Source: Catonia carolina
Taxonomy: Eukaryota; Arthropoda; Insecta; Hemiptera; Achilidae
Reading direction: 5' to 3'
DNA: 64,000 nt
NCBI GenBank assembly: GCA_035578175.1
Contig: JAQMRL010000001.1
Span: 236,297,038-236,361,037 of the forward strand
This document shows, one piece after another, positions 43,344-64,000 of the stretch. Every line of letters starts with the position of its first letter. Positions within the stretch are counted from its first letter, which is position 1. The translations under genes and the position numbers were made by a program. The notes under the pieces were generated by a model that saw only the letters and a program-made list of their open reading frames with translations, was not told the origin of the DNA and searched no databases.

Positions 43344-43901
43344 TAAGGGGAGTGGTTCACCCTATAATAACAGTGTTAATGAAAGTGCACGTATCTTAAA
43401 GAACACTAAAGATAATTTATTTCTGTTTTTTTTTTTTTTACATAAAACTACAAAATTTTCTCTACATTTTAACATATCCATCTTATATTTAATGCATGAT
43501 ATTGAGAAATACGAGTTGTTTTTCGCCGATTAAAAATTTTTTGTTCATCTTCTATACAAAACTTTTACATTTGGATATGTTAAAACTATCACCTTACGGT
43601 AAGAAACCCACAGTAAATATTCCACACTGATATCTGCAGTAGGAACTAAGAAAAGGGCAATTTGAAGTAAGAAAATAAAATTTTCAGAAATTCCGCTTTA
43701 AAGATAAGAATAACTAAGAAATTGAGGTATACTTGTAATTATATTTGTTGTAACATAAGCGCAGAAAAAGTACAATAATAAAAATAATATCTATCAGATT
43801 GTTACAAAATTACCGTCATTTTAAAAAGAGAAGTTTTAAATTATTGATTAATGTAAAAAAATACAAAAATCAATATTTTTTTCGGTGAACCACTCCCCTT
43901 A
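43344..43901. mobile_element. Small inverted-repeat element with a splice-site pair inside
   Basis: AAGGGGAGTGGTTCAC (43,345-43,360) and its complement (43,885-43,900) form the ends. Inside, TTTTAACATATCCA and TGGATATGTTAAAA are also inverted. A second, near-identical copy begins at 63,538 and runs off the window. Confidence 0.65.
43598..43633 (-). CDS. Candidate 36-nt microexon within the inverted-repeat element
   Basis: A long pyrimidine tract ending TTCCTACTGCAG is followed by 36 open bases (peptide YQCGIFTVGFL) and a CC/GTAAGG donor, again entering and leaving in phase 2. It lies inside a mobile element and the peptide is hydrophobic, unlike its neighbours, so this may be chance or an exonised element. 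Confidence 0.3.
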
Positions 43902-45129
43902 AGTACTGAACTAACTTGTACTTGATATTTTTTGTCTATTTTTACTCATTTTTCATTACGTGTGTATTCAGCGAGTCCATTTTCGATAAGAAAAATTATT
44001 TGTATTGGGTAACACTCGTAGTGTTACATAAGAAAGTAAAAGAATTTTTTAATATAAACATAGCAATAGTAATGAATGTTTGAAGCTTTTCGATAAGAAA
44101 AAAAAATGTTGATAAAAAACGGAGTATTTTCCCCTAAAGCATTTCATAACAACATTTTGTTTTATGTATTAATATAAAGAAAATTAACTTTAAATTTACT
44201 ACAAGGTGCTTGGGTTCTTTTAAATTTTGTGTTTTTACAGTTGATTCTTGAAATTAGCTTTTTCTATTGTCTCTGTTATGTTCAATAGTAAATAATTTTA
44301 TAAGAAATAGTTAAATGAAATAGTATTGGTGTTCGGTTTTGCAGTTTTCCTTGACGACTCCAAGCAAAGCCCTGACCAGCCCTAATGTTTTGCGTTCTAT
44401 GCAACTGCATAACCTTACTAATCCAAGATTGGACATTCCGTATAAATATTGTGTTAATTTTCCGTAACTTTTAAGAGATTTTTTACTTATTCATTCAAAA
44501 TTTTCTCTATTTATTAGATTGAATTAAAAATGAAGATGGTTTATTTTTAAGCTGTGCAGTTTGCGTCGTTTCCGTTTCTAATTTACTGTAACTTCTTGTA
44601 CTTAAGTGTAAGTTTACTATTACTATTCAACAGTATACTTAATGTTGAATAGTATTCTGATGGAACACGGAACTATTCGAATAGGCAACTGTAGTTATAA
44701 TAATCCACAGCTCCGTGGAACTTACATCATAAACCGATCCTTACACACACGCGCGCGCAGCACCCCTGTATAGGCCAACTCATTCCAAATGAGATATGAG
44801 TTGTTATGCGCAGTAGCAAAGGAAGTAGTGGGGGGTTTCAGAGCCAGTGCGTTCCCAGTCACCGAAGAGTGAACATCCGTACAGTGGGTCAAAAAAGTAG
44901 TGTTTCGGTTTTGTAATCCAGTCGGTTTCCTTAGAATAGTACCTTACATACTGTAAGACGTAATTTTCTTTTATGCGTTATCGAAAACCAGTTTATTTAA
45001 AACAGTGTAATTGTGTTTTTGAAAATAGTGTTTTAGTGTTAGTTTATTAAAAAAAGTGTAATTGTGTGTTTATTTAAAATGGTGTTTTTGTGTATTTAAA
45101 AAACAGCATAATATTTTATTAACAGCGCT

Positions 45130-45776
45130 ATGAGTGTAAAAAGTAGAGTGAAGCAAAAAACTATTCACTCTCAAGCACGTGAAATAATCGGCTCACTATT
45201 AGAATTCATGCGCCAGGAGGCAATTCACGGGAGCCCAGTAATTCCGTTTGTCAAAGTTCAAGAGCGTGTGGCTGCAGCGACAGGGGTCAGCTTGAGCACC
45301 GTTCGAAGAATTGCCTTAGAAAAAAAAAGATTGCTGACGGACAATCATGTTCATTTGTTTCACTAAAAAAGCGGCTTAAAAACCAAAATAGAAAAATAGT
45401 GTTAGATGATTTTGACTGCAGTGTTTTACGTAGGACAGTGTTAAATTTTCATGTAACAGAGAAAACAATCCCTACTTTAAAAACAATTCATAACAAGTTT
45501 TGTAAGGACACTGGATACACAGGAAGTAAAGAAACATTATGCAAAGAACTGCAGAGGATTGGTTTTAAATGGGTGAAAACGGAAAACGACCGAAAATTAC
45601 TGGTAGAAAAACATGACATTAGACAATTACGACTTAATTACTTAAGAAACATCAAGGCTTATCGAGAACAGGGACGTTATATTGTTTACATGGACGAAAC
45701 GTACATACACGCGAGTCATACGCAAGCGAAAACTTGGACTGACAATTCAAATGCACGCAATTTTGTACCTGCCTAG
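45130..45776 (+). pseudogene. Tc1/mariner-superfamily-like transposase, C-terminally truncated
   Basis: The first frame (45,130-45,365) holds a helix-turn-helix part, VQERVAAATGVSLSTVRRIA. A shift leads to a second frame (45,399-45,776) with LQRIGFKWVKTENDR and YIVYMDETYIHASH, whose Asp is the first catalytic residue of a DDE enzyme. A TAG follows about 20 codons later, and the rest of the catalytic domain is absent where a foldback is inserted. It is inactive. Confidence 0.75.
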
Positions 45777-45790
45777 CGGTGTTCTATAAG

Positions 45791-46422
45791 CTTCAGTAGT
45801 GAGTCACGTACTAGGCACTTGACTGTAATACTACCATGTTGGTTGTATATCTTTATCAAGATTTTATAATAATTTTTTAAAATCTACTTATTATTCTTTG
45901 AAAAATGTGTCCAAACACGTTGCCATTGTGATAATCCTAAGCATTTCCGATGTCGGATTTCATTCTGACTGCCGTTTTTCAATAATATTAATAAATTTAA
46001 TAATTATTATTATAAATTTAACAATGAATATTATTATTTTTATATATGTAACAATTACATATTACTACATTTTATTCCGTTAATCTTATCAAAACATATT
46101 TGAATAACACTGTCGTTTTTATAAAATTAATAGTACTACATTTATACTTTTTATTTATTTTATTATGCTATTAATTGTTACATTTATAATAATAATTATT
46201 ATTATTGTTATTAAATTTATTATAATATTATTGAACAACGGCAGTCAGAATGAAATCCAACATCGGAAAAGCTTAGGATTATCATAAAGATATCGTGTTT
46301 GGGCTCATTTTTCAAGGAATAATTCGTAGATTTTGAAAATTATTATACAATTTTCATAAAAATAATTACAACTAAAATAGTAGTATTGCAGTCAAGCGCC
46401 TAGTAGGGGACTCAATACTGAG
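45791..46422. repeat. Foldback element, family 4, inside the TIR transposon
   Basis: The left arm (TCAGTAGTGAGTC, GGCACTTGACTG, GATTTCATTCTGACTGCCGT) and right arm (ACGGCAGTCAGAATGAAATC, CAGTCAAGCGCC, GACTCAATACTGA) are inverted copies of about 200 bp. The centre is an ATTATT-rich linker. The ORF read across it is an artefact. Confidence 0.85.
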
Positions 46423-46517
46423 GAATGTAATCTAGAACGCAGGTAAGGCAGGTTGCTGCGCGTGTGTGTTTGTGTGTGCAAGGGTCGGTTTATGATCTAG
46501 GTTTCAGGCAGCTGTGG

Positions 46518-47144
46518 ACATATGAGACCGGACATGTTATAGTACTTGTTAATTGTGAGACGGTTAGTCTCTACTTAACTGGTTTGACTGCTTCTAATTT
46601 GCACTCTACCCCCTATTCTTTCAGATTTCTTGTAATATTTTATAAAATATTGTATTTTTGTAGCCATAAAAACAGCGCTTGTCACAAATTAAATGTCGCT
46701 TTCTTGATGCTCTTTTATAAGTTTTGTTGCTGTTGTGCAGTGGTCACCTCCCTTTTGACACAAAGACTGAATTAAATGTGTACAAATCGTGAGGTTAAAC
46801 GGTGTCTCTCGCCCGGTCGAGCCTAACTGCTACTAGTAACTAAAAACATCGTCCGTGTTGGTGAATATACACTTACTACGTAAATTCAAATTTGAAAATA
46901 ACATTTCATGAAAGATAGATGTAGGTTATGTGTAAAACTACCATTTCAATGTAATAATCAATTAAATAACCACTTCTCAACGGAATGATTTACTTTTGTT
47001 GTGACTTCTGTGTGTACGATGTTTGTTGAAATGTACGATAATGACCCCGCACTGCTATCCACTCTATCGCAGTGTTCTCAAAGTCAGAACTACCGCTAAA
47101 ACTCACGACTGTATATAATGATGGTTTTATTCCATAAGACTTAC
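46518..47144. other. Intron sequence, nothing recognised
   Basis: No element or coding sequence is supported between the TIR transposon and the next microexon. A 103-codon plus ORF (46,464-46,775) begins inside the transposon end and has no features. Confidence 0.5.
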
Positions 47145-47258
47145 GTTCGGTAGCTTCCCATATTGATCGGAAGAGAATCAGTTGATCTGGTCGTGGGATA
47201 AGTGTCATCGCGCCGGGTAAATGTTGCGCCTAATTCAATCCAGCCTGCTGTCTCTTGA
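47145..47258 (-). CDS. Microexon, 114 nt, phase 2-2
   Basis: The acceptor is GTTTTTTTAG and the donor AC/GTAAGT. Peptide QETAGWIELGATFTRRDDTY, then PTTRSTDSLPINMGSYR. Its first base T plus CAA is the same beginning as the QYS and QHS exons, so it may be a distant duplicate. No domain is recognised. Confidence 0.7.
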
Positions 47259-47523
47259 CTAAAAAAACATTTTGTTAATATATTTACAGAGAATATAAAT
47301 TATTTACTTATTTTCACAATTATTCGATAACTTAAATCTACGAAAAAGTACTAGGCGTTTGTCAACTTGCTTCTAATGGATAGAAACGCGGTAGCTATGC
47401 TAAAACAATCATTATTAAGTTTTTGCTTCCAGGGTGGGCGCAGTATCTTGTCAATTCATGATTGGAGAAGGGATTGATTTTGTACTAAGTTTATGCATAT
47501 TGTATGGTGATAATATGTTATAC

Positions 47524-47912
47524 CTCATAACAGGCAGATAGAATGTTAAATTATTTTGTACTCGATCTGCTAGTTTCAGGGCTACAAAAAAATTGTTCTG
47601 TTACTTATCACATGGTCAGCCAATTATATGACTGAAGTATTTAAGAACAGAAGAGGTAGAGTTGTAAAAGGCACTAGTATGAATTATATCCTCTGAGAGT
47701 AATGAATGTCATTATATAGCCAGACCTTTCGGTGAATGAAGTGAAGATGTCATTTGCAGAATGGAAGTAAATGCTTTTTGGAGGCCCTGGCATGCTGATA
47801 AACATACTTTTCGAATCAGTGAGGAAGACAGGTAAACCATTTCCCCCCTCATTTTACTTATTTAAGTTTCTAGAGGTTCAAACCAGCCTTTCGGCTGATG
47901 ATCTAAACAATA
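47524..47912 (+). mobile_element. Retroposon family R, copy 3
   Basis: It runs from CATAACAGGCAGATAG to CTTTCGGCTGATGATCTAAAC and is collinear with the other copies. It sits in the intron between exons 48,208 and 47,145. Confidence 0.8.
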
Positions 47913-48207
47913 ATATTTATTTTATAATCCTGAAAATAGTAGCATTAGCTTTTGATATTTCATGAGTTTGTCATTACGTTGATTGCATATTTATATTTTG
48001 ATTTTAGTATGTATGATCTGTAAAGTATATTTTGTATTATTTGGTAACGTCATTTACTACATTTGTTCTATTGTACATCTAAATTTGTAAGTCTGCATAT
48101 CTTCTGAAAACGCTTGAGGCTAAATTATTCTAACTCGTGTTAGTTTAGATTCTTTTCCTAAACTGAAGTCTATTTGAATAATGGTGATGAATGGAGAGAT
48201 CTCTTAC

Positions 48208-48309
48208 CCGGTATTGTCTGGTTGAGTTGGTGTTTGTGATATACTACTTCTGGTGCTGCTGGCTCTGCTCTTTGCTCTGCCCATTTGTAAGTCTGGCTCA
48301 GAATGTTGA
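48208..48309 (-). CDS. Microexon, 102 nt, phase 2-2, QHS type
   Basis: The acceptor is TTGTTTTACAG and the donor GG/GTAAGAG. Peptide QHSEPDLQMGRAKSRASSTR, then SSISQTPTQPDNT. The start (QxSxPDL) and the Ser/Arg-rich middle match exons 54,101 and 53,283 and the dead exon at 55,948; flanking intron words are shared as well. Confidence 0.75.
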
Positions 48310-48428
48310 CTGTAAAACAATTTTTGTAAACCAAATATGTATTTACATCTCATTAGTTCAACGACAATAGTAGAAATAGCTTTTCTGTTCCGTTATATTG
48401 CTCTAACTTTTGTCATATTTGTTATATA

Positions 48429-49263
48429 CAGGGTGATTCACGAAGATATGCAGAAACTTTGGGAGCCCATTGTACATGTAAAAATAATGAAAAAAGTTTA
48501 TATAAATATGGGTCCGGAAATGCTTCGTTTCCGAGTTACGGCTAGCGAAAGTTTCGTCCGGATTTCAGCTCACCAGGTGAAATGAGGTCTTCCTGAAATT
48601 CTGGTAAGGTAGATTAAGGGGCGAATTCAATCATTTCTTATGGTTTTTGATCTGATAAATTGAATAAAACAAGTCCCAGAACTTTAAGTTAAATATTTTT
48701 TAAGAAAACCAGTGTCAAATGCAAAAAATGGAGTGAAAAACACATTTTTTAATCTTTGGGCAGGAACAACTTTGTTATTTCACCAAGAAACAGTTAAAAT
48801 TTTTGAATAAAACATGTTGAAAATTTTATTGTGAACAAACCGGTGTAAATAAAGTACACAGAAAGCGAATAGATGTTTGATTAAACGAATTTTTATTCAT
48901 AACAGTACAAAGTAAAATTAACCGGAAAAACAAAGATGAAAAATTGTGTTTTTTTCACACCATTTTTTGCACTTGACACTGGTTTTCTCAAAAGCTATTT
49001 AACTTACAGTTCTGGGACCTGTTTTATTCAATTTATCAGGTCAAAAACCATAAGAAACGGTTGAATTCGCCCCTTAATCTACCTTACCAGAATTTCAGAA
49101 AGACCTCATTTCACCTGGTGAGCTGAAATCCGGGCGAAATCTTTCGCTAGCCGTAACTCTGTAACGAAGCATTTCCGGACCCATGTTTATATAAACTTTT
49201 TTCATTATTTTTACATGTACAATGGGCTCCCAAAGTTTCTGCATATCTTCGTGAATCACCCTG
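48429..49263. repeat. Foldback element with CAGGGTGATTCACG ends
   Basis: Two arms of about 320 bp are near-exact inverted copies, starting CAGGGTGATTCACGAAG and ending with its complement. TA duplications lie at 48,427-48,428 and 49,264-49,265. A TA target suggests mobilisation by a Tc1/mariner-type enzyme. The arms differ little, so the element is young. Confidence 0.85.
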
Positions 49264-49640
49264 TATTACTATGTTATACTCGTTCGTTGCTACAGCCTTG
49301 TGATCATCCGCAAAAAAAGAGTGTGTAGATATTGCCCATCTATGTCTACACTTTACCGTACTTTTCTTTAAGGATTCAGATACACCTGAACAAAGTAAGG
49401 GAATACAATACATCTAACAAATTCCTCATTGTGAGCATATTAAATGATAAATAGTAAGCTGCATTCCTGAAATAGTGATGAGTGTTTTAGTTTACAAAAC
49501 GAAAGTTCCGGGTTCGTTTCATTAGAAAATCGAAATCATTACCGTTAAAATCTACCGTACCTTGTATGTAGACCTCAGTATTTGCTAGTGACAAAGCTGT
49601 TAATGCCACTTAAAATAAAACAAACTATATATTATAGTTA
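49264..49640. repeat. Gene-linked module, copy b
   Basis: TTACTATGTTATACTCGTTC, AAAAAAGAGTGTGTAGATAT, ACAAATTCCTCATTG and a tRNA-like GAAATAGTGATGAGTG...CCGGGTTCGTTTC match copies near 42,030 and 56,240. The SP-type exon expected beyond it is not present. Confidence 0.7.
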
Positions 49641-49818
49641 TATAAGCGAGTGCGCTTTTTAGGCTGTCTGCCAATAAATTGAAATTGCTGTGTTGGTTAC
49701 CAACGTCCTGAAAGGGCATGGTACAAGAAAGCGACGGGGAAGACAAAGAAGAAGAAAAATTTGTTCATGGAACGATTGCTTTAATACGTAATATTATTTT
49801 TGGGGTACAATTACTTAC

Positions 49819-49905
49819 CCAAATGTACCCCCGCCTGTTTCAATGGGTTTCATTTCTGTCGAAGGTGCGCTCAAAGAAGTTGATGTAAAAGCTGATTCTG
49901 AAAAC
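49819..49905 (-). CDS. Microexon, 87 nt, phase 2-2
   Basis: The acceptor is TTTTTCATTTCAG and the donor GG/GTAAGTAA. Peptide FSESAFTSTSLSAPSTEMKP, then IETGGGTF. It is Ser/Thr-rich. No paralogous exon is seen in the window. Confidence 0.72.
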
Positions 49906-50326
49906 CTGAAATGAAAAACTTTGTATGTAAAGTACTAAATAATGTTTTAACACAGACAGAAAAAGAAATAAAGTTGATTACATAGGGGACTTACATGGTT
50001 ATAATGTTCCAGGCGTGTTGCCTTCTTCAGACGTTGAAGGCAGGGTTTGCTGTGGCTATTGTAATATAAGATGGTCGATATTGATAACATGGTGTTTATG
50101 AAGGGAATCATAAACACATATAAGAAAACACATTTAGTTGTATAAGGGAATTATGGCATTATATTTGTAGACGAGAAATGTGGGAAGTTTGAAGTTATAA
50201 TTGATATTTCGGACATATTAATAGAATTCTAGTCTGTTATTGCGGCCTGTTTAGCTGTGTGCTAGAAGTAGCGCCTAGGGTCTAAATATAAGCCGTTTCT
50301 GTCTTTCTAAACTATATGGAGGGACT

Positions 50327-50716
50327 CTGCCCATAACAGATAGGTGGTGTGTCAAATTATTTACACTTAATCTGTTCGTCGCAGGGCTAAAATAAATAGT
50401 TCTGTTTCTTATCATATAGTCAGCCAATTAAATGACTGAATCGTTTAAGAACAAAAGAGGTAGAGGTGTAAAAGCACTAAAGTTATCTCCTCTGAAAGTA
50501 ATGAATTTCATTATACATCCAGACCCTGTGGTGAATGAAGTGAAGGTGTCATTTGCAGAGTGGAAAATATGTGCTTTTCATAGGGCCCGGCATGTTGATA
50601 AGCGTACTTTCTACTCAGTGAGGAAGGCAGACATAAACTAACTCACTCCTCGTTTTACTTAGTAAAACCTCTACTGGTTCACATCAACCTTTCGGCTGAT
50701 GACCTAAACAACAACA
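50327..50716 (+). mobile_element. Retroposon family R, complete copy 4
   Basis: It is flanked by a perfect 11-bp duplication ATGGAGGGACT (50,316-50,326 and 50,717-50,727), which fixes the ends: CTGCCCATAAC at the start and GACCTAAACAACAACA at the finish, 390 bp. Variable-length duplication and an AAC-type simple tail indicate target-primed reverse transcription, i.e. a SINE-like or short LINE-derived element. A tRNA-like head is not obvious. Confidence 0.88.
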
Positions 50717-51144
50717 ATGGAGGGACTATATTCTGGAAGGGTTTTTAGGACTTTTGCCTTAAATATTTCATTAAATTTTCTATTGTTATTTCTAGCATGG
50801 GATGTTACTCTGGTAAAGGGCAGTATTTCAAGTGAACCAAGTTTAACAATTCAAACTAGCAGAACCTTGATTTATACGGTTTATTCTTATCCTACTAACT
50901 CGTTCCCTCGTACGAAAAACTTGACCCGAGTTATTTGTACTGATCACTATGACCGATCTCGTCATTCTCTATTAGAGATTTTTCGAAAATCCACCCAAAC
51001 TAACGTACGAGTATTCTGTCTTCCATTTATACTCGTACGAAGCCCCCATTTCACACGCTCTTCGAGCTTCTTCATTAGTTGAAGATCATCTCGATTATTT
51101 GTAATGAGTTCCTGATAAAATCGTGTTCAATTTTTAAAACTTAC

Positions 51145-51240
51145 CGGAAGTCTGGTTTAAAGTAGTCAATAGTAATTGGTGATGGTGGTGCGCTTCTTTG
51201 TTGGGTCGTTCTCCGTTCACTTACGCCCTCTGAAGATTGG
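51145..51240 (-). CDS. Microexon, 96 nt, phase 2-2
   Basis: The acceptor is TTTTTTGTAAGCAG and the donor CG/GTAAGTTT. Peptide QSSEGVSERRTTQQRSAPPS, then PITIDYFKPDF. It begins with a C-CAA boundary like the T-CAA of the QYS exons. It is Ser/Pro-rich with a basic patch. Confidence 0.72.
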
Positions 51241-51786
51241 CTGCTTACAAAAAAGAGTTTTCTGATTATTTACAAAAATTTTGGGCCACTTCCAGTCGAA
51301 ACCGGAACTTCAAACCCAATTTAAGCCCACTAACTTTTTGTGTAGATTCCGAATCCGACAACCGTTTGTTGTGACGGAAGATGAAAATTTTAAAAATTGC
51401 CACCAATAAAATTTTGAAGTAAATAAATCAACAAAAGTTAAAGTGTAAAAACATTTTTTTGTATGTACAAATTCAACTGTTCGTGAAAATAAACGAATTC
51501 CGGAAATTTCGATAGATCTTATCTTTTTTTTATAATTACAGGGGCGGTTTTACAGCACTAGGCCTTTAACCGCAGCCCAAACGCCATGAATTCCTACTAA
51601 ACACATCTTGATCCCTTGACCCCTTCTTTCTGTAACTCTCGTAACAACGTTCGTCCACTCCTTTCACCTTTCTCGTTCTCGTATCCTTCGTCCAGTTGGA
51701 ACCTATAGCCAAATCTTACGTGGAAATCTGTTCTCAATTTTCGTAGAATATCCTACCTGGTGAGTTATGTATGTGTGTATATAAGA

Positions 51787-52122
51787 GGCAGGTGAACTGT
51801 TAAATTATTTGCCCTCGGTCTGCTAGTTCCAGGGCTACAAAAAATAGTTCTTTATCTTATCACGTAGTCAGCCTGTTTCATGACTGAAGTATGTAAGAAC
51901 AGAAGAGGTAGAGATGTAAAAGATACTAATCAGAGTTATCTATTCTGAGAGTCATGGATTTCATTATACAGCCAGACCCTTTGGTGAATGAAGTAATGAT
52001 ATCATTTGCAGAGTAGAAGGTAACTGCTTTTCGGAGGGCCTGGAATGCTGAGAAGCATACTTTTCCACTCAGCAAAGAAGCCATTAGTAAACGACTTTAC
52101 TCCTAGTTTATTTAGTAAAGCC
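51787..52122 (+). mobile_element. Retroposon family R, copy 5, 3'-truncated
   Basis: It runs from GGCAGGTGAACTG to TTTAGTAAAGCC, lacking the last 50 bases of the family. Confidence 0.75.
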
Positions 52123-52512
52123 TTACAACAAATGAAAGAGATTTTTAACAAACAAAAAATTAATCCAAAAAATAGATCCAGGCGATGGTTTTACTTTCGC
52201 TAATTCTTTCAAAAATATCATTTATCTGGCATATCATCTAACGTTGAAATCATGGCCCAAAATTTACAGTCGTGCACCAATTCGATGAATCCAATTATAA
52301 ATTTAATGAATTTATCGATAGTAAATCTTGTTATGCCCCTCCGATGTAATACATCTTTATCTTTTTATAATTAATAGTTTTAATAGTCGTGTATTCATTT
52401 ATATGATAACAGAAATAAAGCGGCCGCCACCTGTAAATAGGGTTTAGCGTACTAAGCTGTAAAGCTATCTTCAAATTCATCGTTCCACACCTCTCAGTTG
52501 TCATTTGTACTG

Positions 52513-53100
52513 GCTGTCTAGAACTTGATGGCCTCCGGCAGAGGGGAACAATATGCGGATTGTAAAACCATTTCAAAAAACTTACATATAATTTTTTTTA
52601 AGTGACTGAAATTTGTCGGAAATGACGTATTTTTATAAAATAAAGTATTTCGCATGTTTTGTTCTATAAAATTATTGCGAAAAACACACGCTTAATGAGG
52701 TAATACTTAAGTAAAAAATTTGTTTTTGAAGAAAAAACCGTATTTTTTTCAAATACTTCATCATTGTTCAACAACGATTTCACGGATTAACATAATATTT
52801 GGCAGGTTTATTCTGAAATAATTATAGAAAACTATGATGCAATAACATTTAACAGATAATCATTACTTTTTAAGTTACGAGGACAGTTTTTTCTTCAAAC
52901 TTTTACTGCATTACACATTACCTCATTAAGCGTGTATTTCAAAATATGTTTATTGAACAAAAACTTGCAAAATACTTTGTTTTATAAAAATCGTCATTCC
53001 TGACAAGTTTTAGATACTTAAAAAATTAGAAATATTTTCTGAAATAGTTTTACAATCCGCGTATTGCTCCTCTCTGCCGGAGGCCATCAAGTTATAAACA
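52513..53100. repeat. Foldback family 1, complete copy
   Basis: The left GAACTTGATGGCCTCCGGCA and right TGCCGGAGGCCATCAAGTT are inverted, as are GGATTGTAAAACCATTTCA and its partner. Its right two thirds are repeated downstream by the 818-bp tandem duplication. Confidence 0.85.
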
Positions 53101-53282
53101 GAGTATGATAGCTGTTGATGCGCTGTTCTTTTTTTCGTTTATTTTGCGAATTTTCGTTCGTATGTTGCTTTCTAGACGATCTTTTATAAGTTTTATAACA
53201 TTTGGGCAATAGTTACCATCTTTTTGGTCCTAGGGCTACATTAGAGATGCACATAATATTTGTTTTAATCCAGGAGACTTAC

Positions 53283-53441
53283 TTTGGGTAGGGTCCTTGC
53301 GAACCCAATGGAAGTGATTCATATGATCTTGTGTATGTATCTTGTTGGTTTTGTGTCCGTGGTATGTCGCTGCTGATGCTACTATTGCTTCTGGTTCTTC
53401 TCACTGCACTTTCCTGTCGTAAGTCTGGAGTAGAATATTGA
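53283..53441 (-). CDS. Microexon, 159 nt, phase 2-2, QYS type
   Basis: The acceptor is TTGATTTTACAG and the donor AA/GTAAGT. Peptide begins QYSTPDLRQESAVRRTRSNS and ends LPLGSQGPYP. It is the downstream member of the tandem pair, with SxS and RTRS words typical of low-complexity Ser/Arg sequence. In-frame splicing to the next exon is kept. Confidence 0.78.
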
Positions 53442-54100
53442 CTGTAAAATCAATTAACGTAAATTAAACGTATGTTTTGTTCTATAAAATTATTGCGAAA
53501 AACACACGCTTAATGAGGTAATACTTAAGTAAAAAATTTGTTTTTGAAGAAAAAACCGTATTTTTTTCAAATACTTCATCATTGTTCAACAACGATTTCA
53601 CGGATTAACATAATATTTGGCAGGTTTATTCTGAAATAATTATAGAAAACTATGATGCAATAACATTTAACAGATAATCATTACTTTTTAAGTTACGAGG
53701 ACAGTTTTTTCTTCAAACTTTTACTGCATTACACATTACCTCATAAAGCGTGTATTTCAAAATATGTTTATTGAACAAAAACTTGTAAAATACTTTGTTT
53801 TATAAAAATCGTCATTCCTGACAAGTTTTAGTTACTTAAAAAATTAGAAATATTTTCTGAAATAGTTTTACAATCCGCGTATTGCTCCTCTCTGCCGGAG
53901 GCCATCAAGTTATAAACAGAGTATGATAGCTGTTGATGCGCTGTTCTTTTTTTCGTTTATTTTGCGAATTTTCGTTCGTATGTTGCTTTCTAGACGATCT
54001 TTTATAAGTTTTATAACATTTGGGCAATAGTTACCATCTTTTTGGTCCTAGGGCTACATTAGAGATGCACATAATATTTGTTTTAATCCAGGAGACTTAC

Positions 54101-54265
54101 GTTGGGTAGGGTCCTTGCGAACCCAATGGAAGTGATTCATATGATCTTGTGTATGTATTATTGTCTTGTTGGTTTTGTGTCCGTGATATGTCGCTGCTGA
54201 TGCTACTATTGCTTCTGGTTCTTCTCACTGCACTTTCCTGTCGTAAGTCTGGAGTAGAATATTGA
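54101..54265 (-). CDS. Microexon, 165 nt, phase 2-2, QYS type
   Basis: Same acceptor as its twin and donor AC/GTAAGT. It has two extra codons (an Asn-Asn change within NQQDNNTYTRS) and a Pro-to-Ser change relative to 53,283. The insertion keeps the frame. It is the upstream member of the tandem pair. Confidence 0.78.
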
Positions 54266-55186
54266 CTGTAAAATCAATTAACGTAAATTAAAAGTATATT
54301 TACACCTTGGTAGTTCTACGACAATGTTAGAAAATATTTTTTTCACTTTTACCCTTTATAACTTATCAAATTTTTCCATAATAATTACAGAAATTATTAC
54401 TATGGAGTAAAGTTTTGTATAGAATGGACTCCAAATAAGCTTGCCAGTTTTCTAAAGTGCGCAGAAGTTTTATTTTGGTAATGGTGCGCTCGGTTGCCTC
54501 AGCGAGTGGTGGGGGTCAGTGCTGTACTAGCTGTGATCAGAATCACGTCGCTCTCGCCACGTTAAATATCAGCTGACCTGAAAATATTAGTCTGTAATAT
54601 GTTGTATGTACAACAAAATTTACTTTACAACGTTCAGAGTCTGTGATTTAGTAGGCAGTTCGGTACTAAGACACGAAATCCACCGACTGAATCCGAACCT
54701 TTCGCGCAGCTACACCGGCAAGCTTATTTGGCGTCCGCTATACTTGACATTTTGGTATTTTTGCAACCTCCTTCATAATATTTGTTATCACATTTATATG
54801 TTTTAAACTGGTATTTTGCTGAAACCTCTTGATCCTTCCGCTAATAGAAACTTTTGTGGTTATTACTTTTTTATGTCAACATCCGTAAATATAGATAAAC
54901 AATATCGTACTTTGCTGGACATTGCTTTAATACTATAGAATATTGTAATGGAACACGAAACTATTGAAACAGGCAATCGTAGTTCTTATAAATTTAACGG
55001 GTGAGTGTCTGGTTAACTCACTGATTATGCTAAATTGTGATCTGACATTATATGCTTATTGTTTTTAGAATATTTTGTCATTAATCATAAAATTAGTGGT
55101 CCGTCACAAAGCAATCTTCGCTTGCTAGTTGTTCTTTCATATATCTATGCAGTAAATTATTAGGTTTTTTTTGTAGGTTTTGCATT

Positions 55187-55739: not shown

Positions 55740-56600
55740 TGAGATTGTCAATAAGTTTTGTTGCACATTTATCTTGATTTTAGTACTGTATGACTTGGTA
55801 ACGTCATTTCCTACATTCGTTCTGTTGTACATCAAAAGTTGTGGGTCTGCCTATCTTCTAAAAACGCTTTCGGCTAACTTATTTTAACTCATTTTTTTAG
55901 ATTGTTTCGCTAAACTGAAGACTATTTGAACAATGGAAATAAATGGAGAGATCACGCGACATCACTTCTGACATCAGCAGAAGTGATGTCGCTTCTGCTG
56001 ATTGCTCTACCCAGTTCTATGTCTGCGGTAGAATATTGACTGTAAAACAATTTACATAAACCAAAATATGTATTTACATCTTATTAATCCAACGGCCAAT
56101 AGTAGAAATGTTTTTCTGTTTCGTTGTACTTCTCAAAACCTTTTGCATAATAGAAACAGAAAATATTACTCTGGAGTAAAGTTTCAATACCTTAAAAGGA
56201 AACTTTTCATGTTGGTTTTTTTTCAACCTCAGTCATATTTGTTATCATATTACTATGTTAAACTGGTTCGTTGTTAAAACCTTTTGATTATCCGCAAAAA
56301 AAAGAGTGTGTAGGTATTGCCTATCTATGTCTACACTTTGCCATCATTTTCTTTAAGGATTATACACCTGAACAAAGTAAAGGAATACAATACCTCTAAC
56401 AAATTCCTCATTATTAACATATTAAATGATAAATAGTAAGCTGCATCCGTAACATAGTGATTAGTGCTTTAGTTTACAAAACTAAGGTTCCGGGTTCGTT
56501 TCCTTAGAGGGTATCGAAATCATTACCCGTCAAAACCTACCGTATTTGTTATGTAAACCTGACATTCGCTAATGATGAAGATGTTGATACCACTTAAAAA
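55740..56600. repeat. Gene-linked module, copy c
   Basis: The left part (AAACGCTTTCGGCTAA, ACTGAAGACTATTTGAA) matches 48,110-48,190. The part after the dead exon (GTATTTACATCTTATTAAT, CAATAGTAGAAAT) matches 48,337-48,400. The right part (AAAAAAGAGTGTGTAGGTAT and the tRNA-like ACATAGTGATTAGTG) matches copies a and b. It shows the ancestral order on the minus strand: SP-type exon, spacer, QYS-type exon. Confidence 0.72.
55948..56039 (-). pseudogene. Dead QYS-type exon with snap-back palindrome
   Basis: The acceptor TTGTTTTACAG is intact and the frame starts QYSTADIELGRAISRSDITS, but it meets a TGA and the donor seen in the 48,208 paralog is gone. The 3' part is a palindrome (55,956-55,970 against 55,978-55,992) overlapping another (CAGCAGAAG against CTTCTGCTG), as if the strand had copied itself backwards. 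Confidence 0.7.
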
Positions 56601-56610
56601 GAGAACTTAC

Positions 56611-56697
56611 GCTTCTTGAGGATAACTGGACCATTCTTCCGGGGTAATATTATGTGCATTATGCGATAATTCAATCGTTCCTGTTCCATATGGTGAC
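56611..56697 (-). CDS. Microexon, 87 nt, phase 2-2, SP/PQEA type
   Basis: The acceptor is TTTAACTTACAG and the donor GC/GTAAGT. Peptide SPYGTGTIELSHNAHNITPE, then EWSSYPQEA. It is a diverged paralog of exons 43,083 and 63,276, one codon shorter. The ends (SP, PQEA) are conserved and the middle is not. Confidence 0.77.
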
Positions 56698-56833
56698 CTG
56701 TAAGTTAAATAACATTACGTATTACTGTTCAGAAGAAACACGTGTTTAAAAAGGTGTTCCAGGAATATTTGTCTGCCCCCTTGAATCTTTCAGAATTTTC
56801 TATCGGATGTTATGTATACGTCCTGTTGATACG

Positions 56834-57155
56834 AACTATAGTTGATTTCACTTTCAGAATGCAGTACGGGAAGTCCATAAGCAATGTATTTCATGTGGGA
56901 GTTTTAGCGCTACTACACTAACTAAAAATATCGACTCCGCGCCTCAACACGTTCTCATTTACAAATTCCTATTGAATAACATAATAAGAAAACATGAGTC
57001 ATTTTTCAAACTCGTTTATTATTTCTGTTTCCGTCGAACTTATCGTGTATCAAATTACAGATAAAACTCGATTTTATAACAAAATAATAAAACACATATA
57101 TCGTCATTAAAAGGAAAAGTTATATGATGTGAAATGTAAAAAATGTGACGAGATG
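56834..57155. repeat. Dispersed 0.33-kb repeat, inverse of 34,741-35,076
   Basis: GATTTCACTTTCAGAATGCA, TTTTAGCGCTACTACACTAA and ACAAATTCCTATTGAATAAC are the reverse complements of words at 34,920-35,076. From 57,156 to 57,749 nothing further is recognised. Confidence 0.7.
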
Positions 57156-57749
57156 TAAACGCCCAACTTTATACATGCGTATCTTATCTGAATATCATAG
57201 TATAATAACTACATTCCTTCTAACGCTTTTCTTATTAATTAAAACTGAGAATTCCCTATATTATATTTTAAAATATTATTCTATTTTTGTAATTTTTTTA
57301 AAGCACTTTCTAGATTCAATTTTTGCAATCCCACAATTTACATTTCATAATCCATTAAATGATGTCAACGATTCGCTCGTAAATTCGTTACAAAATTAGT
57401 GTTGTATGATTGTAAGCGACGCAGTAAAGTCATAGAGCACATCACTTGTCTGAAATCCGAACACTTAAAACCAAGAAATAAAATATTTCGAATGTCAACC
57501 AAAAATTTAAGGTTACGTTAGTTTCTAAGTTTTTAAAAATAAAATTTTAATGGTTTCATTTCAATTACTCAAGCAGAATCTTTACCTTATTTGAACAGAG
57601 TATTCTTTGTACTTGGCATTGAATATGGTTCAATATTTAAAACTTATACAAGGCCATCTTTTGATTCAAAAGTGAAGTATTGCTCCACGAGATATAATTA
57701 GTCATTCGTGATTTACCAGTAGTAGTGTAATTTTTCAGGTCATGAAATA

Positions 57750-58677
57750 CGAGGTGTGGCTATTAAATAACGAGACTGACGTGAAAAATTTTATTTAGTT
57801 TTATACATAATCACTTAATGTCATCTTCAATATACACTCCTTCTCTTTTCCTACAACGCTCCATGCGAATTTTCCATCGTTGGAAACAGTGCTGGAAGTC
57901 ATCTTCTGTCAGCTCCTTCAGAACACGTACCTCTTTCTCTTTTACAGCTTCCACAGACTCAAATCTTGTACCTTTAAATGCAGATTTCACCTTAGGGAAC
58001 AGGTAGACGTCACATGGTGCAAGATCTGGTGAATAAGGTGGATGGTCTAACACTGAGATGCTGTACTTGGCTAGGAACCTCTTGACAGATAACGTGGAAT
58101 AAGCTGGCGCATTGTCTTGGTGGAGAACCCATGATTGGTCCTTCCACAGTCCTTCCACAGGGGCGGTTTCTCCTTACTCTTTGACGTAGTTTGGATAGTA
58201 CCTCAAGGTAGTAATATTGATTAATTATTTGATCTTTAGGAACCCAGTGAAAGTACACAATCCCACGGATATAAAAAAACAAACATCATTGCTTTAAATT
58301 TTGACTTGCTCATTCGAGCTATTTTGGCTCTCGGTGAAGTTCGGTTCTTCCAGTGCATGGACTGGCGCTTCGTTTCCGGATCATAAGTAAAAAACCACGT
58401 TTAATCACATTTTATTATCGTTTCCAAAAAATTTAGGCCTTTTTCAGTCGCGTACAAAGTGTCAGTACAAACATTTTTGCGAGCGTCATTTCAAAAATTT
58501 TTGAGCGGCTTGTGTCCTGAAGGAGCTGACAGAAGACTGTTTCCAACAATGAAAAATTCGCATGGAGCGTTGTAGGGATAGAGAAGGAGTGTTTTGAAGG
58601 TGACAATAAGTGATTATGTATAAAATAAAAATAAAATTTTTACAACGTCAATCTCGTTATTTAATAGCCATACCTCG
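57750..58677 (-). mobile_element. Mariner element with inverted end, copy 2
   Basis: The ends CGAGGTGTGG and TACCTCG lie between TA duplications (57,748-57,749 and 58,678-58,679). It is 928 bp against 925 bp for copy 1. It has the same inverted terminal segment joined at the same place (the TTTTTGAGCGG junction), so both copies descend from one rearranged parent. Confidence 0.9.
57811..58500 (-). pseudogene. Mariner transposase remnant, copy 2
   Basis: The minus strand has WVLHQDNAPAYSTLSVKRF and SPDLAPCDVYLFPKVKSAF, with the same 34-residue spacing between Asp residues. The usual His after DNAPA is Tyr. The Glu of the TCDETW-like motif is replaced by a stop, and a frameshift lies near 58,155. 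The C-terminal part to the end (RMERCRKREGVYIEDD) is better kept than in copy 1. Confidence 0.9.
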
Positions 58678-58737
58678 TATTTATACATAGTATATTTTAA
58701 GGCTCATATTAAAAGGACTTCCAATTCAGTAACGTAC

Positions 58738-58851
58738 CATCCGTCCGATGAACTGACTTCTCTAGCATCTGAAGACGTATCTTGGATTCTTGAGGCAGAC
58801 TCCTGTGTTTCTGAATTTTCTAAACCTTCCTCTTCTCCAGGTGTTCCGTAA
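58738..58851 (-). CDS. Microexon, 114 nt, phase 2-2, acidic
   Basis: The acceptor is ACTATTATTGTAG and the donor TG/GTACGTTA, the one donor here that is not GTAAG. Peptide YGTPGEEEGLENSETQESAS, then RIQDTSSDAREVSSSDG. It is strongly acidic and Ser-rich. Confidence 0.72.
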
Positions 58852-59179
58852 CTACAATAATAGTAATGGGTAGTTTAATTTATATGCCTACATACATTTG
58901 ATTATACCTTGTATTCAATACAATAAATGCAGGTCTAACTACCGGGTGGCGCATATGTCAGTTTCCTCATGAAATGGGATATTTTGTATCAATAAGTTTG
59001 TAATAGTGTTACGCTGGCAGCAACCATGTATTGGCTAACATTAATTGTTGTCCGTTATAGTGAGGTAATTCTCTATACCCAACGAGCTAAAGACTGCAGA
59101 TGAGATCTAGCCAATAACAGCCAAGGTGGGGTGTGAGGTTGCCCCTTCGCTAAGTCACACTCTTTTTTTACCGAACTCG

Positions 59180-59230
59180 ATCGTTTCAAACTTCGTCGAT
59201 CGTTTCACGATCGACGAAGTTTGAAACGAT
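59180..59230. repeat. Perfect 23-bp palindrome with 5-nt loop
   Basis: The arm at 59,180-59,202 (ATCGTTTCAAACTTCGTCGA and CG... onward) is the exact complement of 59,208-59,230, with the loop TTTCA. It lies just upstream of a mariner relic, and one arm looks copied from the other. Confidence 0.92.
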
Positions 59231-59249
59231 GATTTTTGATATGAGGATT

Positions 59250-59460
59250 TGCAAATGAGACGTGTTGCCGCTAAATTTGTTCCTCGCCTTCTCAAACAGG
59301 ATCAACTAATCATTCGTTGAATTTGAGCCAGGACTTGAAAAGCAAGATTGAAAGTGATCCTATTTTTTTGACCTAAGTCATAAAAGGTAATGAGAGTTGG
59401 TTTTACTGGTATGACCCAGAAACCAAGCGTTAAACCAGTGGAAGATTGACTTAATGCTTA
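59250..59460 (+). pseudogene. Second mariner-type transposase relic
   Basis: The plus strand gives RRVAAKFVPRLLKQDQLIIR and, after stops, NESWFYWYDPETKR. These are the segments before and at the first catalytic Asp of mariner transposases of a lineage different from copies 1 and 2. The Asp of GDES is Asn here. No ends were found. Confidence 0.7.
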
Positions 59461-59649
59461 ATGACTGCGCTGGTAGAACATGTCAACAGTAAGAGAAACG
59501 CAACACTACGATGAAACGTTAACCTACAAATTGACGCCATCGGGCAGTTGTTTTTTGAAAGTCTTTACTAGCTCCATCCAGTGGGAGAACTCTCTACTAT
59601 GTCTACGATTAGCAGCGCGCTCTCAGTCCGGTTATTTTTGGTTCCCCAT

Positions 59650-60235
59650 CATATAGCGTCAATTAGTGATTTTCGGTATTTTTAAGTTCTACAGAGGTTG
59701 ATTTTAATTTAGCGACATACAGTCCTGATTAAAAATAGGTTATGTTTTTCATTTTATATTGTTTACTCATGATTAAACATAGGTTATATTTTTCATTTGC
59801 CCATAACAGACAGGTAGAGTGTTAAATTATTTGCACTCGATCTACTGGGCCACAAAATATTATTGTTTCTTATCTTATGGTCAGCCAATTTTATGACTGA
59901 AGCATTTAAGAACAGAAGAGGTAGAGGTGTAAAAGACACTAGTCACGGTTATCTCCTTTCAGAGTATTGAATTTCATTATACCAGACCCTATGGTGAATG
60001 AGGTGAAGGTGTCATTTGCAGGGTGGAAAGTGGATGCTTTTCTGAGGGCCTGACTTGCTGATAAGCATACTTTTTACTCAATGAGGAAGTAAACCATCTC
60101 ACTACTCGTTTTATTAAGTAAACCCTCTAGAGGTTTAAACCAGCCTTTTGGCTGATGACCTAAACCACATATTTTCCATTATTTACATTGTTAAGAGAAA
60201 GTCGTATTAGTATTTTACACTACGTTTTCACAACA
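59650..60235 (+). mobile_element. CTTTCTCTTGCC family fragment, split by retroposon R
   Basis: GCGTCAATTAGTGATTTTCG and AGAGGTTGATTTTAATTTAGCG match the right part of the family. After the retroposon the right end TTGTTAAGAGAAAGTCGTATTAG resumes near 60,190. Confidence 0.65.
59798..60168 (+). mobile_element. Retroposon family R, copy 6, nested
   Basis: TGCCCATAACAGACAGG to TGATGACCTAAACC. It is flanked by TATTTTTCATT (59,787-59,797) and TATTTTCCATT (60,170-60,180), an 11-bp duplication with one mismatch. It is inserted in the CTTTCTCTTGCC family fragment, which gives the relative ages. Confidence 0.82.
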
Positions 60236-60391
60236 ACTTGTGTAATGCATTTATTGATAGTAGATGGCATTTGTGCTGCCACCTTAATGCATTATCTGGT
60301 AACTACGTACCTTATGCAAAATAAACACAATAAAATAATAGATATATCCAAAATTTAAAAAAAATAAACACACTGTATACATATAACTTAC

Positions 60392-60430
60392 GTTAGTGGA
60401 AAGTCCGCCAATTGATATATTCCAGGTAAT
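60392..60430 (-). CDS. Microexon, 39 nt, phase 2-2
   Basis: The acceptor is TTTGTTGATTTTAG and the donor AC/GTAAGTTA. Peptide LPGIYQLADFPL. It is the smallest strongly supported exon. Such a short open frame alone would mean little; it is supported by two good splice sites and the shared phase. Confidence 0.62.
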
Positions 60431-61468
60431 CTAAAATCAACAAATTTTTTCGTGTACAAAATGTTTTTTTTATACAATCAACAAGCTATGCAAGTATAGG
60501 CTACGAATAGACAATATTCGAAATGACGTCTAAAATTCTGTTTGGGTGTCGTTGAGCTAACTGAAGAATAATCAAACAACTATAACTTAACTACGATGTC
60601 ACTTCAGTGTATTTCGATTTAATACAAGTCATTACAATATTCCATTGTAATTAAATTCTATTTCTGGCAGTTTCTTTCGAAAAAAAATTAAAAGTGTATT
60701 TTATCAGAACTTCTATCTTTGACGTGTTGATATGAAGAAATTAAACAATTCCATCTTCCTCTTTGACTTATTAACTTTAACGTTAATCATGCTAAATAAT
60801 TTGTTTATTACTTAGTTCTGTTTCATAAGGAGATATCCATATCAGCTTCAATGCTGTTTGCGGAAGAGTTGATTGGAAAACCTTGTATAGAGGCAGTATG
60901 TTCATGGTGGGGTTTTTGTGGGATCAGGCCTAACGTTGTGTCAACTGATTATCTTAAAACGGCGCTCGTTCATTAGGTTTCCTACATACTGACCAACTCT
61001 TTTTCAGCTCCTTCAGAGCTGCGAACAGGCTTAGAATGACAGCACACGAGACACCGGTGTACGGTGGAAGTATAGGCATATTATCATCTGGCTCGTCGTG
61101 GCTTCGAATGAATCAGCTTACAGATACTACATCCACCCGTCCCTAGCCTGATATTATAGACTGTTTACAAAACTAATGTATATATTTTTCTACATTTCAT
61201 AGTAAAATACGTTTATTATAAATGCAGTTCAAAGCGAATGGGGAGTGATGTAAAGTATTATAATTAATCATCAGTTATTATTGTTATTCAGTTATAGGCT
61301 TATTAGTAGACAGTTTATTTACAAATAATACTGGTTTTGACAGCAAATGATAATCAACAACATACGCCTAACCAACAAATGAAATGCACAGTGAATATTG
61401 TCATTCAGTGTTCAATCAATTATCGTTCAGTGCGATCAATACAGTTAAAAAGTGTTGAGGTTTTTTTT

Positions 61469-61603
61469 ATGATGTGTGCGGACCAAATTTATAGAATACC
61501 AAGTGTAATGGTTATTATTTTATTGTTTATTACTTTACAGCACCTACTAGTTGGTACTAATTGTACTAGTTGTACTAGAAAAAGAAACCTTTTTTTAATG
61601 TAG
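61469..61603 (+). CDS. Short ORF with a signal-peptide-like start (uncertain)
   Basis: From ATGATGTGTGCG the frame reads MMCADQIYRIPSVMVIILLF, then ITLQHLLVGTNCTSC, and stops after 45 codons. A hydrophobic core followed by small residues is the form of a secretion signal. A TTCAGT initiator word lies at about 61,425-61,430. It is on the strand opposite to the microexon chain, no convincing donor was found, and the in-frame start could also be 61,337. It could be a first exon of another secreted protein or chance. Confidence 0.22.
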   Translation: MMCADQIYRIPSVMVIILLFITLQHLLVGTNCTSCTRKRNLFLM

Positions 61604-62259
61604 CCTACTTCAAGAAACTTTATTAGCTACGCCGGCAATTTTTTTTAGAAAACAAACAGTAAAAATATCAATGACATTCATAACAGTGCGTAACAGTGTT
61701 CTAGAAATATTGACGAATATTAATAGTCTAATTAATTAAAAAATTAAAGTAGCGCTGTTTCAAAATTGTTATCGAAATTTTGTTAAGGTTAGGAAAGAGA
61801 TTTATAAATTATAATTGGGTGTATATGAATATTATTGTATAAATGTACGCTTTATAGTAAACTATATCGTGCATTTTGTTTTAGAGCGGTAATTTTTGAT
61901 ACACCTTGTATTATTACAGGCTAAACTCTCTGCGCGCCAAGTGAGACGCCCAATATTATACACTATACATGCAATTTCAATAGAAGATTGCACTGCTGTA
62001 CATGTTCCCTCTACTTGCCTCCTCTTTTTTATTCAGAGTTGTCAACATAGGTACTGGTTGTTAGAAAAGTATGCCTGTAAACTGTTACCAATGTTTAATA
62101 CTTACGTATGAATGTACTTATTATAAAGTTATTGTGGTAATTAACCACAATAATCCTATTTTAGTTTAAATATACCACGTACCGATCGGTACATGCGTAA
62201 ATTACCACATTCATCGTTGACCGGTCTGCAATACCCTTAATTACTTCACACGCTTAATT

Positions 62260-62580
62260 ACTTCGCGTTGTACAGTTCAAAGAATTTTGAAAGAAAAAAC
62301 CCCGATGTGCTAATCAGAACACCAAATAAGAAAAGAATGAGAAGGAAAGTGAAGAGTGAAGTGGACGATTTTGATAAGTGTGTTGTGAGAAGAACAATAC
62401 GTATATGATTTTCATAAAACAAACGCTGAATGGGCAACTTGAATTTGTTACTCCCCGTTTTGCGGGAGGAAATTAATTTCAAAGGAAGTAAATGGTCGCT
62501 GAGGAAATAATTAAAGATATGGGATTCAAATGGAGAAAGGCAAAAGACAACAGAAAATATAAAGTTTTTAACTAGTTTTT
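62260..62580 (+). pseudogene. TIR-transposon transposase relic
   Basis: The plus strand contains DDFDKCVVRRTIRI, then a later frame with IIKDMGFKWRKAKDNRK. These align in order with DDFDCSVLRRTV and LQRIGFKWVKTENDR of the transposase at 45,399-45,776. Stops and shifts separate them, and the catalytic part is missing. Confidence 0.65.
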
Positions 62581-62954
62581 AGTCTACCGTAGTAGTTGTA
62601 ACAGAGCAGTATACAGTTAGAAAGAGAGGGAATGATCATTAAGTGAGAAGGAGACAACAATTGCCCCGTTGAAACTATCCCTACTCTACCTACTCGCCCT
62701 CCCCTTACAAGCTTCTTCCAAAAACAAATGTACTATAATATACGAGTATGAATAAAAGTAAAAATAGATAGTGATTTATATTATGCCCATTACTCATTTG
62801 ATAATAATCTAGAGTATGGGTGTAGTAGTGCGTTTTGCAGCACACTATACAAAGTGCTGCAACCACTTTACTAGTGTGAGAGTGCAATGACGTCTTACAG
62901 AAGCTTCTATTGATATTACGTATGGTATAGTGTACGGGACACTAAATATACTGT

Positions 62955-63123
62955 CTGTCTATAATTTGATGGCCTCCGGTAAAGAGGAGCCATATGCGAA
63001 TTGTAAAACCATTTCAGAAGATATTTCTAATTTTTTTTTAAGTAACTAAAACTTGTCGGAAATTACATATTTTTATAAAACAAAGTATTTCGTATGTTTT
63101 TTATTCTAATTATAAAATTATTT
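62955..63123. repeat. Foldback family 1, left arm only
   Basis: ATTTGATGGCCTCCGGTAAAG and ATTGTAAAACCATTTCAGAAG match the left arm of the family. It is cut at TTTCGAAA, where the duplicated gene block begins. Confidence 0.75.
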
Positions 63124-63275
63124 CGAAATCATTACGCTTTAAAACATCATTACGTTGTTATGTAGACCTCGTTCACTAATGACTAAGATGTTAATGCCAA
63201 TTGAAGTAAAAATCGAAGTATTATTGATTGTAATACTGGTTAAATTGTAATTTTCCTACTTCAAAGAGAACTTAC

Positions 63276-63365
63276 GCTTCTTGAGGATGTCTGGACCCTC
63301 CTGCTTCCGGACTAATAACATCTTTATCACTGGATAATTCCATCGTTCCTGTTGCATCTGGTGAC
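63276..63365 (-). CDS. Microexon, 90 nt, phase 2-2, SP/PQEA type (5'-most seen)
   Basis: The acceptor is AATCTTGCAG and the donor GC/GTAAGT. Peptide begins SPDATGTMELSSDKDV and ends SRHPQEA. Against exon 43,083 it has Gly for Val, Ser for Pro, Asp for Asn, Lys for Glu and Gly for Arg, with no silent change. The 5' start of the gene must lie beyond 63,365 or outside the window. Confidence 0.8.
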
Positions 63366-63786
63366 CTGCAAGATTAGTAACATTAAGTATTCTTATTCAA
63401 AAGAAACAAGTATTTAAAATGTTCTGGGAATTTTGGTTTTTGCCTAGAAACTTTCAGGATTATGGGATGTTATGTATCGGTCCTGGCGATACGAACTAGA
63501 CAAAGGAAAAACGCCTGAAGTATCTATTCGGTACTTTAAGGGGAGTGGTTCACCCTATAATAACAGTGTTAATGAAAGTGCACGTATCTTAAAGAACACT
63601 AAAGATAATTTATTTCTGTTTTTTTTTACATAAAACTACAAAATTTTCTCTACATTTTAACATATCCATCTTATATTTAATGCATGATATTGAGAAATAC
63701 GAGTTGTTTTTCGCCGATTAAAAATTTTTTGTTCATCTTCTATACAAAACTTTTACATTTGGATATGTTAAAACTATCACCTTACG

Positions 63787-63822
63787 GTAAGAAACCCACA
63801 GTAAATATTCCACACTGATATC
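63787..63822 (-). CDS. Candidate 36-nt microexon, duplicate of 43,598-43,633
   Basis: Identical in sequence and splice sites to the candidate at 43,598-43,633 and equally uncertain, as it lies inside the same inverted-repeat element. Unlike the 90-nt exon next to it, it shows no difference between the two copies. Confidence 0.28.
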
Positions 63823-64000
63823 TGCAGTAGGAACTAAGAAAAGGGCAATTTGAAGTAAGAAAATAAAATTTTCAGAAATTCCGCTTTAAAGATAAGAATA
63901 ACTAAGAAATTGAGGTATACTTGTAATTATATTTGTTGTAACATAAGCGCAGAAAAAGTACAATAATAAAAATAATATCTATCAGATTGTTACAAAATTA

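Follow-up and report, generated by a model that had tools for sequence, protein, structure and literature searches.

A tentative case for gene conversion over one predicted exon in a recent 20-kb tandem duplication

The two units of a 20,193-bp tandem duplication with nine predicted exons are nearly identical, except for a tight cluster of substitutions that falls mostly on one exon. Our preferred reading, to which we give a probability of about 0.42, is that this exon was overwritten in one of the two copies by gene conversion from an unsampled version. A patch of at least 88 bp over the exon would have been replaced in one unit through a short conversion tract, the donor being a diverged version of the same exon, either an allele or a paralog absent from the assembly. 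The imported version would itself probably have diverged under the mild, long-term diversifying selection suggested by the older copies (omega about 3). Selection would then shape the pool of exon versions, and conversion would move versions between copies.

A cluster of differences within a recent tandem duplication

The window is the whole stretch of 64,000 nucleotides that was analyzed (G000:C1:236297038-236361037), and genome searches covered the assembly of 1.47 Gb in 142 contigs. Reading 100 kb on each side of the window placed both exon copies, here called A and B, inside one tandem duplication (Table 1), and a genome search located a second copy of the older paralog, P, at a distance of 20.19 kb downstream from the P of the window. 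The two units abut and differ by 15 substitutions and 4 indels. A 6-bp microhomology, TCGAAA, with a chance of about 5e-4 at one register, is present at the breakpoints, which favors a real duplication over two contig ends laid in tandem. No N occurs anywhere in the 264 kb read.

Copies A and B align without gaps and are bordered by canonical splice sites (..TTGCAG/GT...GC/GTAAGT..), which set the minus-strand frame. Five of their 90 bases differ and all five differences are non-synonymous (A/B residues Val/Gly, Pro/Ser, Asn/Asp, Glu/Lys and Arg/Gly), as a first-pass annotation of the window had reported. The near-identity of the flanks that it described was also confirmed: in the window they differ by one substitution (43068/63261, 15 nucleotides past the donor) and by a T-run change of 5 T, and near-identity extends over the whole unit. 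The view that the copies differ only by amino-acid changes holds for the five exonic differences, but the intronic substitution belongs to the same cluster.

These five exonic substitutions and the intronic one lie within 88 bp. In 400,000 runs in which the 15 changes were placed at random, none had six inside 88 bp. The probability of at least five substitutions in the SP-type exon is 5e-9, and in any 90-bp stretch roughly 2e-6.

The nine substitutions outside the cluster set a clock, which turns the locus into an internally dated comparison: it can separate steady diversifying selection, with its bounded rate of exon change, from the one-step import of a ready-made exon version. Four of the nine are derived in unit 1 (53283, 53786, 56417 and 62660) and four in unit 2 (56306, 56307, 58935 and 59276), while 58496 is left without polarity. 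Polarity was read from internal 818-bp copies for 53283 and 53786 and from an older copy, locus Q, for the other six sites. With four derived changes on each side, the background resembles ordinary mutation in both copies.

All nine background substitutions lie to the right of 53282, and the 10.1 kb at 43156-53282 hold no substitution between units (P = 0.002). Chance or a later homogenization of that half are both possible, and by our reckoning homogenization would alter the time scale only about twofold. The unit also contains an internal tandem duplication of 818 bp (52651-53468 and 53469-54292), which doubles one predicted exon.

Table 1. Positions of the duplication units and predicted exons, counted from the first base of the window
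Feature	Position	Strand	Remarks
Unit 1 of the 20,193-bp tandem duplication	42930-63122	.	99.886% identity to unit 2
Unit 2, start within the window	63123-64000	.	Full extent 63123-83311, past the window end
TCGAAA microhomology, 6 bp	63123-63128; also 42930-42935 and just after unit 2	.	Breakpoint comparison
88-bp patch	43068-43155 (unit 2: 63261-63348)	.	Holds 6 of the 15 inter-unit substitutions
SP-type predicted exon, copy A	43083-43172	-	90 nt, phase 2 at both ends; splice sites and frame
SP-type predicted exon, copy B	63276-63365	-	90 nt, phase 2 at both ends; 153 bp from junction
Predicted phase-2 symmetric exon	47145-47258	-	114 nt; identical in unit 2
Predicted phase-2 symmetric exon	48208-48309	-	102 nt; identical in unit 2
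Predicted phase-2 symmetric exon	49819-49905	-	87 nt; identical in unit 2
Predicted phase-2 symmetric exon	51145-51240	-	96 nt (a 117-nt version to 51261 also fits); identical in unit 2
Predicted phase-2 symmetric exon, copy 1 of internal 818-bp duplication	53283-53441	-	159 nt; last base differs between units
Predicted phase-2 symmetric exon, copy 2 of internal 818-bp duplication	54101-54265	-	165 nt
SP-type predicted exon, older paralog P	56611-56697	-	87 nt; identical in unit 2
Predicted phase-2 symmetric exon E2	58738-58851	-	114 nt; diverged copy at locus Q

A series of nine predicted exons

On its minus strand, unit 1 carries nine predicted exons of 87-165 nucleotides, all of them multiples of three with phase 2 at both ends and open when joined. 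They were sought as phase-2 symmetric exons, and their support consists of splice sites, frame and a control count. With thresholds unchanged, five exons of this class occur in the 223.6 kb outside the units (0.45 expected per 20.2 kb), and the five other strand/phase classes in unit 1 hold 0, 0, 0, 1 and 2, the last being two of the nine intervals in another frame. The 20-kb region is likely part of an animal gene, whose exon series would be transcribed and spliced as drawn; a transcript of unit 2 could even run in frame through unit 1. A search for the first and last exons of the series found neither.

When joined and translated, the nine exons give a peptide with much Ser, Thr, Pro and Gln and without Cys. 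It would most likely represent a disordered stretch of a fast-evolving, lineage-special protein. Eight of the nine exons joined (284 amino acids) had no match at E ≤ 1 in a search that drew 867 candidates from 5.8 billion proteins, and no Pfam family over its cut-off (one at E = 0.75). Against the genome the same query gave 20 matches at E ≤ 10, 18 of them in the two units and two at locus Q.

A candidate signal-peptide exon at 62709-62797 was dropped: a dispersed repeat accounts for its first 17 codons and for the DNA upstream, with 2188 first-look candidates in the genome, 40 matches among the 40 that were scored, and 45 protein matches. This high-copy repeat (62747-62900) keeps the frame MSN.HNINHYLFLLL in 12 of the 12 copies read, bar single residue changes, and mimics a signal peptide. 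Since the candidate exon overlaps the repeat, the small number of differences between it and locus Q carries no information on a signal peptide. The role in host interaction suggested by the first-pass annotation is thus not supported, this having been the sole signal-peptide candidate kept for testing, and a secreted-effector reading would find no support here.

Older copies and the polarity of the changes

Locus Q (G000:C1:236562000-236579999; L041 and L045) is an older copy at a distance of about 206 kb, in which sequence resembling 30624-34723 (97-99% identical) is joined to sequence resembling 56176-63128. It contains one full SP-type exon, Q1, and one truncated, Q2.

At codon 6, A stands apart from B, P, Q1 and Q2, so the change is derived in A. 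At codon 14 and at the intron site, B stands apart from A, P and Q1, and these changes are derived in B. At codon 11, B shares the state of P, and A that of Q1; at codon 13 it is A that agrees with P, and B with Q1. Codon 23 gives no polarity. The paralog at 56,611 does therefore agree with A at some sites and with B at others, as had been noted before, and changes are found on both sides. Mixed polarity is nevertheless weaker support for selection than the first-pass annotation took it to be, as an imported sister version also produces it: even a single import gives changes on both sides, since changes had already arisen in the receiving lineage before it. The two copies are at the same distance from P (18/84 each) and from Q1 (22/84 each).

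Codons 11 and 13, only 6 bases apart, show all four state combinations among A, B, P and Q1. This pattern reflects either exchange among copies or repeated mutation, which is possible at such divergence. Q2 resembles a mosaic of P-like and Q1-like sequence. A comparison of P with Q2 has the look of a second exon acceleration (6 of 41 exon bases differ, all non-synonymous, versus one in the nearest 150 intron bases), but we discounted it, because Q2 is truncated at a rearrangement and five of the six states are common to its neighbor Q1, so that it may be a mosaic.

Evidence for conversion and the search for a donor

Several observations argue for conversion: the differences are clustered in a short tract between near-identical flanks (6 of 15 in 88 bp), the other eight exons are not accelerated (1/924), the polarity is mixed, as expected if a sister version was imported (A has the derived state at codon 6, B at codon 14 and at the intron site), and one of the clustered sites is non-coding. 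We infer that the cluster arrived in one event, from an unsampled allele or a lost paralog. A single event is preferred because five or six independent changes, while the rest of the 20 kb gained nine, would be less economical.

DNA and pattern searches found no donor in the assembled genome. The exon DNA gave four candidates there, and the four, when scored, proved to be A, B, P and the unit-2 copy of P. With its flank (375 bases), the exon gave seven matches: these four, two at locus Q, and 38 intron-only bases at C1:74.9 Mb. Stretches of 33 bases from the A block and the B block each match only themselves in the assembly with up to three mismatches allowed, and neither P nor Q1 shows any of the derived states (codon 6, codon 14, intron site). 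If a donor existed, it would have to be an allele outside the sample or a copy since lost. Mosaic exchange from an unseen paralog, which the first-pass annotation had listed as an alternative, fits better than selection, although these searches turned up no donor for it in the assembled genome.

Several points weigh against conversion. For so short a tract, the donor must differ by about 6% inside it and be the same outside, or the tract must end right there. Omega above 1 in the old copies keeps selection in play, and the nearness of the cluster to the junction (about 2% by chance) favors a junction-linked cause. Should population data reveal the donor, the locus would document by what route a gene copy can acquire a different protein segment as soon as it arises.

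A broader form of the idea, exon-sized renewal, would treat symmetric phase-2 exons as an interchangeable pool among which patches of about 100 bp are swapped, leaving introns untouched. We regard it as a long shot; if true, a fresh duplicate would come to differ in a protein segment nearly immediately, well ahead of anything that point mutation could provide.

Is the cluster compatible with selection since the duplication?

The first-pass annotation had attributed the exon differences to strong diversifying selection after duplication, A and B each fixing independent amino-acid changes in one exon. We consider this doubtful, though it deserves serious weight. All five exon differences are non-synonymous and changes occurred on both branches, and a similar pattern is described for the SSSGP genes of the Hessian fly, with pairwise dN/dS values of up to 18.8 (PMC2955719). 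However, without selection five non-synonymous differences out of five have a probability of 0.28, and at least five out of six in the patch a probability of 0.30. The SP-type exon differs sharply from non-coding DNA (p = 4e-9) and from the other eight exons (p = 3e-5), whereas those eight internal predicted exons have one substitution in 924 bp, no more than non-coding DNA (p = 0.38). Because they behave like non-coding DNA, exons as such are not accelerated on the A-B time scale. That one of the clustered changes is intronic also speaks against selection.

A codon model for A, B, P and Q1 gave an omega of 3.09 (p = 0.045 against omega = 1), and 2.59 without B (p = 0.10); these tests use 28-29 codons and assume no recombination, whereas the reading we favor involves it. 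Values of pN exceed pS between A and P (0.243 vs 0.110), A and Q1 (0.302 vs 0.129) and P and Q1 (0.254 vs 0.078). Exon E2 and its copy at locus Q differ at 10 of 114 bases versus 24 of 577 in the flanks (p = 0.054), with eight non-synonymous and two synonymous changes, an excess that may lend weak support to faster exon change in general. The exon copies in the 818-bp duplication differ by two substitutions and one 6-base in-frame indel, and the rest of the 818-bp unit by four substitutions. Some long-term diversifying selection among the older exon copies is likely on the codon model and the pN and pS values.

Selection of this strength falls far short of what A and B would require. With omega at about 3, the expectation for the exon is 0.09 non-synonymous changes, where five are seen (P of at least five, 5e-8), and even an omega of 30 gives P = 0.002. 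In the codon model the A-B path needs 0.0225 neutral changes per base, whereas the flanks show 0.00045, a mismatch of about 50-fold. Outside the cluster, substitutions occur at a rate 165 times lower than the A-B pN, yet the older exon copies are no more diverged than their introns: between A and P, the exon differs at 18/87 and the introns at 30/137 and 24/92. The comparison of dN/dS with intron divergence proposed in the first-pass annotation thus gave an omega of about 3 among A, B, P and Q1, but with exon and introns about equally diverged between A and P and a value too low for A-B. The claim of strong selection after duplication is only partly supported. More generally, when exons and introns contrast in recent duplicates, every exon of the unit should be checked before the contrast is put down to selection.

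Junction-linked mutation, assembly effects and homogenization

The junction, with its 6-bp microhomology, is 138-225 bp away from the cluster. Error-prone, microhomology-mediated replication might have left six errors in unit 2 while making the duplication, and error-prone template switching at duplication junctions is discussed in the literature (PMC5410019, PMC4352052). Two of the three polarized changes are on the B side, and a share of at least five non-synonymous changes in six is as expected without selection. This origin predicts one-sided polarity, but codon 6 is derived in A, where B equals P, Q1 and Q2, so that a back-mutation in B would be needed. The 138 bp adjoining the junction are unchanged between units, and a cluster falling mostly on an exon would need chance. 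Taken together, these points make junction-linked mutation distinctly unlikely.

Least probable of the causes we retain is an assembly effect, in which the units are alleles or overlapping contig ends placed in tandem, or the cluster is a consensus error. A before-X-X-after layout has the look of an uncollapsed overlap, and two alleles could ordinarily differ by 15 substitutions and 4 indels over 20 kb. Against this stand the breakpoint microhomology, as in real tandem duplications, and the lack of any N; a cluster of six changes in 88 bp between alleles would also stay unexplained. Homogenization of the flanks, raised by the first-pass annotation, was rejected, as it would have to cover everything in 20 kb but 88 bp. 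What remains of the probability we leave to causes that we have not thought of.

Comparison with known systems

The SSSGP genes of the Hessian fly offer a parallel, and a similar exon-versus-intron contrast in tandem copies has already been published for them. Introns are described as alike between tandem copies and coding sequences as diversified, for which the authors invoke positive selection together with homogenization through short conversion tracts (PMC2955719, Chen et al. 2010). Introns are likewise alike at our locus. In the SSSGP genes, conservation covers the promoter, UTRs and signal peptide, and diversification the entire mature coding region. Here, in contrast, a single one of nine internal predicted exons differs, the other eight behaving like non-coding DNA, and the one signal-peptide candidate kept for testing overlaps a dispersed repeat.

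The closest match to the favored mechanism, conversion of an exon-sized patch, comes from the three-finger toxin genes of viperids, in which exon segments are reported to be exchanged between paralogs while introns remain alike (PMC2474615, Doley et al. 2008). The segments exchanged there are described as distinctly different, whereas A and B differ at 5 of 90 bases and align without gaps, and nothing at the present locus suggests a toxin.

The bicycle genes of aphids are described as long genes whose small internal exons almost always begin in phase 2, with rapidly changing coding sequence and no sequence homologs (PMC9168663, Stern and Han 2022). All nine internal predicted exons are in phase 2 here, though they were sought as phase-2 symmetric. 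The published gene-structure classifier, run with three assumed last-exon lengths, a gene length set at 20 kb and a provisional 89-nt first exon, since abandoned, returned a logit of -15.1 to -17.9. The predicted exons of our locus average 113 nucleotides, and the lack of Cys leaves no CYC motif, a motif that is reported missing from some bicycle homologs too (PMC9168663). Given the failed classifier and the lack of Cys, we do not file the locus among bicycle genes. The KQY/KHI cassette effectors of the pea aphid are also described as large genes with small exons and divergent coding sequence (PMC7495047, Dommel et al. 2020). The locus shares small exons and divergent coding sequence with them, but they are named for a conserved signal-peptide cassette, and the signal-peptide candidate here was dropped for its overlap with a repeat.

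Other features of the window

Elsewhere in the window, a retroelement frame with RNase H and integrase lies at 407-2143 on the plus strand. On the minus strand are a DNA-transposon frame at 21674-22933 (DDE_1 with a Brinker-type DNA-binding domain) and a weak DDE_3 frame, under its cut-off, at 57811-58173. A single tRNA match, also on the minus strand, at 27863-27934 (30.9 bits versus a gathering score of 29, E = 0.018) is possibly, at a guess, part of a tRNA-derived repeat.
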